Source: an uncultured Bacteroidales bacterium
GTDB lineage: Bacteria > Bacteroidota > Bacteroidia > Bacteroidales > Bacteroidaceae
DNA length: 61,144 nt
Direction: 5' to 3'
Assembly: GCA_902775975.1 (NCBI GenBank)
Contig: CACYOC010000009.1
Location: 1-61,144 of the forward strand
This document shows positions 43,079 through 44,401 of this stretch, piece by piece (positions within the stretch are counted from its first letter, which is position 1; every line of letters begins with the position of its first letter). The position numbers and the translations under genes were made by a program. Under the pieces are notes generated by a model. It searched no databases. It had not been told where the DNA came from and worked only from the letters and a program-made list of their open reading frames with translations.

Positions 43079-44401
43079 ATGGAGCAGAAACAATGGCAAT
43101 GGCAGGAAGAAGGCACATCGTGGAGGGGCGTCGGCATCTATCACGTCACGCTGACCATTCCGTCGCGGCAACCGCTGCTGGGCAGCCTGAACATTCCGGA
43201 CGGCGACCCTACCAAGGCCGTTGTGGAACGGACTGAGCTCGGCAGGCTGCTGCTGGAATGCCAGCGGTCGGTGCCCGTCTTTCACCCCGAAATTCAAATC
43301 TTGCAGTACTGCCTCATGCCCGACCACCTGCACGTGATCTGGTATGTTCGACAGCCCATGAAGCAGAGCATCCGCCAAGTGGCGCAGGGCTTTTGGCAGG
43401 CGGCGAAAAAGGTGGGGCGCGCGTATAGTTACGCCAGTTACGCCAGCCTGACAGGCGGCGCAATGAACGAAAGCGGCGGCGCAACGAACGAAAGCAACAC
43501 CCCAGGAAGCATGGGCGGCGCAATGAACGAAAGCAGCGGCGCAATGAACGAAAGCAGCAACCCCGAAAGCAAGGGCGGCGCAACAAACGAAAGCGGCGGC
43601 GCAATGAACGAAAGTAGCAACCCAGGAAGCAAGGGCGGCGCAACGAACGAAAGCAACAACGCAACGAACGAAAGCAGCAACCCAGGAAGCATGGGCGGCG
43701 CAACGAACGAGAAGCGCGGGCTTTCGTCTATTGCAGCGGCTGGCAGCCGTGAGAACCCTCTCTGCAAAGCTCTCGGCAACGAGGTGTACTGGCTGCTTGA
43801 CCCTGTTTTTACCGAGAGGCCTTTCCTCCGTCCACTGTCACGCCGCGGGCAGCTGCAGGCGATGTTGCGTTATGTGCGGATGAACCCTCAGCGGCTGGCT
43901 ACGAAGCGCCTGATGCCGGGGTTCTTCCGCGTGCAGAAAGGCATCGAGATTGGCGGGCGCAGTTACGACGGTGTGGGCAATGTGGCCCTACTGCAGGCTG
44001 AGCACTTTGACGTGGTGCATGTGCGCAGCACGATGGTGAAGGCTGCCGAGCATGGCGACTGTCAGCCGTTGCGCGACTACATGAACAGTCGGGTGCTCGA
44101 GGCACGGCAGGGTGTGGTGATGGTGTCGCCCTTTATTTCGCCCAACGAGAAGCGTGTCATGAATGTTCTTCTGGAAGAGCAACGCCCTTTTGTGTTGCTG
44201 GCAGACAATGGTTTCCGTGATTACTATAAGCCTACCGACGCCCTGTTCGATGCTTGTGCTGCTGGGCGCGTGCTGATTCTGAGTCCTTGGCCTCACGACA
44301 CAGAAAAACGCCACATCAGTCGGGCGGACTGTGTGGCGCTGAATATGATGGCGGAGGAGATGGTTAGAAGTCTTTCGTCATTTCCTCTACCTCGGCATTG
44401 A
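43079..44401 (+). CDS. Y1/REP-associated transposase-like protein with Rossmann-like tail
   Basis: 440 residues. Residues 1-120 form a Y1_Tnp (IS200/RAYT) HUH nuclease domain: [10 protein letters not shown], then [11 protein letters not shown] with the metal-binding pair His83 and His85; a nearby tyrosine (115-121) could be the nucleophile. Residues 126-205 are four units of 20 residues ([24 protein letters not shown]) from a 60-bp minisatellite inserted into the domain. [19 protein letters not shown] follows as in RAYTs. The last 130 residues ([40 protein letters not shown]) look like a Rossmann-type domain, perhaps DprA/SLOG-like. It overlaps thrS by 38 bp tail to tail. No flanking REP elements were identified. 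Confidence 0.8.
43454..43712 (+). repeat. 60-bp in-frame coding minisatellite
   Basis: Units start at 43454, 43514, 43574 and 43634, with a partial fifth at 43694. Each encodes 20 residues built from two NES-containing halves ([14 protein letters not shown]). The unit is a multiple of three, so copy number can change without a frameshift. Confidence 0.95.

Follow-up and report, generated by a model that had tools for sequence, protein, structure and literature searches.

Organization of the locus

The window analysed here, a 61,144-nucleotide stretch of DNA from an uncultured Bacteroidales bacterium (contig CACYOC010000009.1, assembly GCA_902775975.1), contains a gene for a 440-residue Y1/HUH nuclease that resembles the transposases of repetitive extragenic palindromes (REPs), namely the REP-associated tyrosine transposases (RAYT, also TnpA-REP). 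The coding sequence includes two REP-like hairpins and a 60-bp satellite, and ends in a tail with a predicted DprA-like fold. The features of the gene are given below in window coordinates; R1 denotes a covariance model of the hairpin element.

43079..44401, + strand: whole gene, encoding a RAYT-like Y1/HUH nuclease of 440 residues that ends in a DprA-like tail (open reading frame, family alignment, structure model)
43238..43453, + strand: candidate recognition segment, assigned by homology and covering the HUH strand and helix 98-124 (about residues 54-125)
43322..43333, + strand: HUH motif D82-H83-L84-H85, both histidines invariant in 44 rows
43443..43459, + strand: in-gene hairpin 1, CCAGCCTGACAGGCGGC, 17 nt with 5 of 7 pairs left and thus partly decayed (R1 match 43440-43475, E 5.1e-7)
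43454..43716, + strand: 60-bp coding satellite, 4.4 copies (Tandem Repeats Finder)
43460..43473, + strand: 3' foot of hairpin 1, GCAATGAACGAAAG
43721..43734, + strand: 5' foot of hairpin 2, CTTTCGTCTATTGC, matching in type the reverse complement of the hairpin-1 foot
43735..43751, + strand: in-gene hairpin 2, AGCGGCTGGCAGCCGTG, 5 of 7 Watson-Crick pairs and one G-T (R1 match 43719-43754, minus strand, E 1.1e-6)
43871..43873, + strand: catalytic Tyr265 of the Y-x-x-x-N-P motif, invariant in 44 rows
43928..44368, + strand: DprA/ShosA-like (SLOG-type) domain by predicted fold, residues 284-430

The initial annotation proposed an HUH nuclease domain with HLH metal ligands, which is borne out by the family alignment: H83, H85, Y265, N269 and P270 are invariant among 44 aligned family proteins, and the window protein reads DHLH and YVRMNP at the two motifs. 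The protein has a Y1 transposase fold, and its full-length structure model reaches a predicted template modelling score (pTM) of 0.72, with a predicted local distance difference test (pLDDT) of at least 90 at 298 of 440 residues; disorder is predicted for the satellite residues 126-207, the rest of the model being confident. The match to Pfam Y1_Tnp reaches an E-value of 0.084 only, searches of PDB and PHROGs sequences with the whole protein or the tail gave no significant match, and phage records gave no match to the window protein. The gene product is a RAYT-type Y1/HUH nuclease, for which the intact catalytic residues suggest cutting activity.

A hairpin element maintained inside the gene

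A REP-like in-frame palindrome occupies the same slot in 59 of 59 orthologues (type A in 24, B in 19 and C in 16), namely between the long helix after the HUH motif (aC) and the next strand (b4), in a loop predicted to be disordered. The element is a 17-nt hairpin with a 7-bp stem, a 3-nt loop and a foot of the CTTTCGT/ACGAAAG type, and the inserts that carry it range from 13 to 132 residues. Elements were counted with peptide anchors that are independent of pairing; left out of the 59 were near-duplicates (L041, L045, L051, L078), paralogue-type loci (L002-L008, L035-L037) and loci without a usable insert (L032, L050, L056, L075, L076), among which L050, L056 and L075 nonetheless contain R1 matches. 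Stem cells are paired in 186/189 cases for type A, 139/147 for B, 87/98 for C1 and 120/133 for C2. Among 57 distinct 17-mers the stem pairs vary on both sides, pair 5 being AT in 30, GC in 14, CG in 11 and TA in 2; part of this variation reflects type differences because the pooled count mixes types, and pair 1 of type A alone is CG in 8, TA in 4 and GC in 1, with one TG. These anchored counts and distinct 17-mers are relied on because covariation on alignment A3 is biased by rows chosen for pairing; alignments A2 (gap in the stem) and A4 (mixed registers) were left out of model building.

Many A elements and most B elements have flanking feet that complement each other at symmetric distances (CTTCGT/ACGAAG, CTCCGT/ACGGAG), a further complementary pair being TATTTTGT with ACAAAATA. 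CGTC or TGTC stands at the tested position in 44 of 81 5'-type feet, a count that depends on the chosen regular expression. In an anchor-free comparison of each insert's longest perfect hairpin with windows of equal length from its own gene, p <= 0.01 was reached by 51 of 73 genes and p 0.05 by 55. The hairpins are maintained in the family.

In the window gene, the order is hairpin 1, its foot, repeated copies of 3' arm and foot, the reverse-type foot and hairpin 2, and the satellite is a tandem expansion of the hairpin-1 3' arm and foot. Tandem Repeats Finder places it at 43454-43716 with period 60, 4.4 copies, 88% match and a score of 398; the interruption of the nuclease by a 60-bp coding repeat, as first annotated, stands, with 4.4 copies and about 88 residues in place of 4.3 copies and 80 residues. 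A 20-base core, GGCGGCGCAAYGAACGAAAG, matches the satellite eight times at <=2 mismatches and not once in 100 shuffles, and is absent at <=3 mismatches from the rest of the draft genome (2.70 Mb, completeness 88.75%). Tandem arrays occur in 25 of 68 inserts, with a period divisible by three in 24 of the 25, and their units differ among species: in L010 a whole foot-plus-hairpin unit is present 3.9 times, and in L072 a 24-bp unit 11.8 times. Two other accounts of the satellite were rejected, namely a dispersed REP of its own genome, the core being unique to the window gene, and a strong single-strand structure, the insert strand folding as DNA no better than shuffles (z -0.02). Inverted repeats of >=12 bp were not found around the window gene.

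Co-segregation and exchange of the cassette

Group 2 and 3 RAYTs recognise hairpins, and helix a3 has been suggested as a hairpin contact, as far as the available text of that report goes (PMC8266576). By homology, the segment of the HUH strand and following helix would be the part of the present family that reads the hairpin, and it directly precedes the element. A tree was built from 59 insert-free proteins, of which 53 are orthologues and 6 paralogues; another 6 orthologues were omitted for their short tails or ends. Mapping the four labels (A, B, C, paralogue) onto this tree takes 8 changes against a minimum of 3. The nearest neighbour is of the same element type in 52 of 53 cases for the HUH and aC segment, 42 for the Tyr segment, 33 for the N-terminus and 29 for the tail. 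Among pairs with tails >=80% identical, HUH-helix identity is 85.2% in same-type pairs (19) versus 49.9% in different-type pairs (11), the corresponding N-terminal values being 85.8 and 83.6%. Label shuffling, a test that ignores relatedness, yielded 13.68 points for the HUH-helix segment and a far weaker 2.82 for the N-terminus, both above all 2000 shuffles.

The exchange is seen most directly in natural mosaics. The type-B protein L063 shares 96, 48, 92 and 97% identity with the type-A protein L048 over the N-terminus, HUH-helix, Tyr segment and tail, respectively, versus 73, 76, 74 and 58% with the type-B protein L062; at the DNA level, L063/L048 identity passes from 85-97% to 55-77% at about codons 51-160 and returns to 93-100%. 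The same mosaic is found in L065 from an independent assembly, which makes a chimeric contig unlikely, and L066 and L058 are two less clear mosaics in the same direction. The near-identical proteins L048/L049/L071 and L063/L065 differ mainly in the hairpin-carrying segment. In these natural mosaics, the HUH-helix segment and the element are exchanged as one cassette.

As a separate observation, assembly RUG456 holds two orthologues, L068 (B) and L071 (A), which are possible partners in cassette exchange.

Element copies outside the gene

The model R1 was built from 22 type-C elements of other loci, selected for their pairing and including one, in L043, that lies outside the gene; window sequences were not used in its training, and it finds both window elements. 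In 41 loci of a species-level genome collection (two of them without gene coordinates), 12 R1 matches at E <= 0.01 lie beyond or across the gene end, in 10 loci, and 9 of the 12 fall within 1 kb of the gene, in 8 of 39 relatives' loci; none adjoins the window gene.

Ten gene-bearing genomes chosen for R1 matches near the gene (L068 only at E 0.018-0.028) contain at least 3-27 matches each and at least 114 in total, in-gene ones included, these counts being lower bounds because 150 candidates were scored per genome. In 8 of the 10, coordinates place some copies outside both the gene and its flank. Most copies in G157 (23 matches) and G158 (27) have a foot near CAATNNACGAAAG in common while their stems differ, and G157 contains many near-identical element copies. 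Some distant copies sit in other family genes, as do at least the matches C84 and C130 of G158. The elements located in frames of >=150 codons (18 of 23 in G157 and 16 of 27 in G158) were not used as evidence, because such frames arise by chance.

The DprA-like tail

The initial annotation further guessed at a DprA/SLOG-like fold for the tail, which agrees with the structure model: residues 284-430, taken from the full-length prediction, are predicted to adopt a DprA-like Rossmann fold and match ShosA and DprA structures, ShosA being the best structural match. The tails of orthologue rows share 55-79% identity, and a motif S-[PG]-F-x-S-x-x-E-K stands at the place of SGLAYGID of DprA. Neither Pfam PF02481 nor TIGR00732 matches the window protein, and a Pfam scan of 35 tails gave no DprA match (PF02481) and nothing significant. 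Shorter tail relatives score below the cut-off of the DprA model, with PsyrA as their best match, and a separate true DprA is encoded in the same genome as the window gene.

The tail might alternatively be a restraint module that keeps the nuclease in check, in the manner of the ShosA, PsyrA and RqlI antitoxins. This account would be in line with the best structural match of the tail and with that of its shorter relatives, and RqlI, which has a DprA-like region, is described in the available text as countering the toxicity of the helicase RqlH (PMC4670107). The window domain differs from these antitoxins in being fused to the nuclease, and no toxin gene was recognised by eye beside the nuclease among the open reading frames of 41500-46500, a region in which no profile search was made. 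Restraint is a somewhat unlikely role, one that concerns the tail only and is compatible with the remainder of the explanation given below.

Small DprA/PsyrA-like proteins without a nuclease are encoded in distant Bacteroidota (L101 1489-1950, L102 1483-1950, L103 1333-1821, L104 1426-1962) and adjoin genes resembling restriction or toxin-antitoxin components. The paralogue L005 contains a second repeat expansion inside its tail, with the peptide TALKSAGT in common with its first insert.

Comparison with known systems

GTAG is the tag of the REPs bound by the RAYTs that have been studied. The window family has the HUH motif, the Y-x-x-x-N-P motif and the Y1 fold in common with RAYT/TnpA-REP proteins (class 2; E. 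coli TnpA-REP, PDB 4er8), but differs from them in its DprA-like tail, its in-gene element and a CTTTCGT/ACGAAAG foot instead of GTAG. IS200/IS605 transposases (class 1.1) are characterized by Y-x-x-x-Q and near-identical copies, whereas the window family has Y-x-x-x-N-P, and the relatives within the window's genome are diverged. As for DprA, the window domain is distinguished by its fusion to a nuclease, by the missing Pfam/TIGR00732 match and by the motif that replaces SGLAYGID.

TnpA-Y1 subclass 2.4 is described as having REP insertions within transposase genes and variable repeat-bearing insertions (Quentin et al. 2018, PMC6006769, in the text available); the window family resembles it in its in-frame REP insertions, its double-foot REPs and its occurrence in Bacteroidetes. 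The same portion of that paper gives subclass 2.4 the motifs NH[IFV]H and YIxNNP and inserts at b3-aC, and lists no tail domain, whereas the window family has DHLH, YVRMNP, an insert at aC-b4 and a tail of about 150 residues, and so departs from subclass 2.4 in motifs and tail. Searches of an open-access library gave no description of a DprA-like domain fused to a RAYT or another HUH protein. In our reading the family forms a new RAYT subclass that has a DprA-like tail and keeps a cognate element, its presumed substrate, inside the specificity cassette.

REPs inside coding genes have also been described, as have in-frame Rickettsia elements and CGTC-tagged REPs reported without a dedicated transposase (Di Nocera et al. 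2013, PMC3733652, in the part available). The present elements resemble these as in-frame palindromes in protein genes and in the CGTC/TGTC of their feet; stems there are 8-9 bp and loops 4-5 nt, in contrast to the spacer, 7-bp stem and 3-nt loop found here, and the likeness need not mean kinship. The family could be the missing enzyme for CGTC-tagged REPs.

Interpretation and alternatives

The best explanation, which we hold to be probable, is that of a RAYT-related nuclease with an in-gene cognate hairpin in a swappable cassette and a DprA-like tail that handles single-stranded DNA. It builds on the predicted fold, the intact catalytic residues, the maintained hairpins, the distant copies in relatives, the co-segregation and the mosaic exchange; the in-gene element as substrate, its cutting and the role of the DprA-like domain are what we infer from them. 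The nuclease would recognise the 17-nt hairpin with its CTTTCGT-type foot as single-stranded DNA, cut beside it and rejoin the ends. A copy of the element would lie in frame in the enzyme's own gene, directly after the segment that presumably reads the hairpin, and because the two adjoin, they would move together as a single cassette, open to exchange among alleles. DprA binds single-stranded DNA, and by analogy the fused domain may bind it too and hold or hand on the processed strand. The satellite would have arisen by tandem duplication of the element's arm and foot, either through slippage or through the enzyme's own cut-and-join. In the window's genome, where both hairpins have lost part of their pairing and further copies are not seen, the gene may have ceased to spread elements.

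Several points weigh against this explanation. The NCBIfam model REP_Tyr_transpos (NF047646) scores 26.7 bits (E 4.2e-6) against a cut-off of 80, and the foot is not GTAG. The peptide anchors were composed once the inserts were already known, and in the anchor-free test p exceeds 0.05 for 18 of the 73 inserts, among them L003, L004, L007, L008, L038 and L040, the last being the gene of the cultured Xylanibacter brevis, in which the hairpins are partly decayed. Co-segregation of segment and insert is partly expected of neighbours, and the return of identity at the Tyr segment marks a boundary without thereby proving functional matching. The genomes with counted copies were selected by their matches near the gene and scored for a fixed number of candidates; the other two genomes of Prevotella type in this set, G155 (Xylanibacter brevis) and G156, each have a single match outside the gene, about 0.9 kb upstream. 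The ten same-genus genomes without a protein match, in which R1 found nothing (an empty answer that alone is no proof of absence), came from a different taxonomic draw and were unmatched to the positives. The window's own genome has no R1 match at E <= 0.01 outside the window gene, which is weak evidence because draft assemblies often lose repeats. Moreover, aligning the tail profile directly to that of DprA with hhalign falls short of significance (0.7%, E 0.077), the predicted link being drawn through structure and intermediates.

An unlikely alternative holds that the hairpins are passive: REP-like elements would land in many genes, the disordered loop would tolerate them, and the satellite would be slippage in a linker. 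The hairpin of paralogue L002, GTTGCGACTCAGTCGCAAC, which is of another type, indeed has three more sites at <=1 mismatch in the window's genome (L089, L090 and L091, each at 1501-1519), in open frames that read by translation as purL, purM and proC; purM, the only one of the three compared with relatives, has 8 extra residues at the hairpin site relative to 18 of 19 other genus rows (28 of 30 genomes matched, 20 rows alignable at the site). REPs within coding genes are known from the available text cited above (PMC3733652), and the arrays of differing units are also consistent with slippage. The occupation of one site in every orthologue, the two-sided changes of stem pairs and the exchange together with the recognition segment would, however, be unexpected of chance landing. 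L138 purM has a different, longer insertion at the same site.

It is rather improbable that the element instead regulates expression, the protein binding the hairpin in mRNA or single-stranded DNA for autoregulation, with no role in mobility. The element lies within the coding sequence of every orthologue examined and is consequently present in the transcript, but the distant copies in most of the chosen genomes suggest spread, and the window insert strand folds as DNA no better than shuffles. A decayed IS200/IS605-like remnant with an accidental minisatellite, to which the poor Y1_Tnp match and the privacy of the satellite to the window copy might point, is very improbable and largely contradicted by the invariant catalytic residues, the conserved tails and Y-x-x-x-N-P in place of Y-x-x-x-Q.

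Returning to the nuclease with its in-gene cognate hairpin, a more far-reaching and tentative version, possible at best, is that of a self-contained recombinable REPtron, whose tail would feed the cut strand into recombination and thereby allow in-frame entry of REPs into coding genes; by analogy, its cassette logic would resemble the swapping of specificity parts in restriction systems. The question addressed is how RAYTs and their REPs co-evolve and spread. Natural near-identical pairs that differ mainly in the cassette would make specificity readable with a handful of oligonucleotides, the fusion of an HUH nuclease with a DprA-type domain would connect the cutting of hairpins with the recombination machinery, and the in-gene elements suggest how one class of fast-changing coding minisatellites could originate.

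Distribution of the family and neighbouring features

In the window's own genome, 16 matched pieces correspond to the window gene, eight other places and one 27-residue fragment; these diverged members are 28-40% identical to the window protein, except for the 27-residue piece at 74%. In the same genus, 80 of 150 genomes match some family member. One scan of the species-level collection produced the 41 loci, of which 37 are labelled Prevotella, Bacteroidaceae, Paludibacteraceae or other Bacteroidales/Bacteroidia, many from ruminant gut; three are labelled only 'bacterium', and one, L061, is labelled Alphaproteobacteria and is possibly a misplaced contig. Within the order, a profile of the tail matched 15 of 295 genomes; the frames measured 326-528 codons in 12 of these and only 73-156 in the other 3. 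Within the phylum it matched 6 of 395, namely the window's genome and five others whose frames measured 157-249 codons.

The gene thrS is convergent with the nuclease gene, and its last 38 bases overlap the 3' end of the latter (window 44364-44401). Among 36 other loci, mostly with 1.5-kb flanks, only L015 matched thrS, weakly and probably spuriously. Just 5' of the nuclease gene lies a divergent open reading frame of about 85 residues (window 42695-42952, - strand; MANVTTVPVQ...), antitoxin-like by eye. Other arrays in the window have seven-base units, TCTTACA repeated 13.9 times at 4871-4967 and AAAGTGA repeated 11.4 times at 29580-29661.
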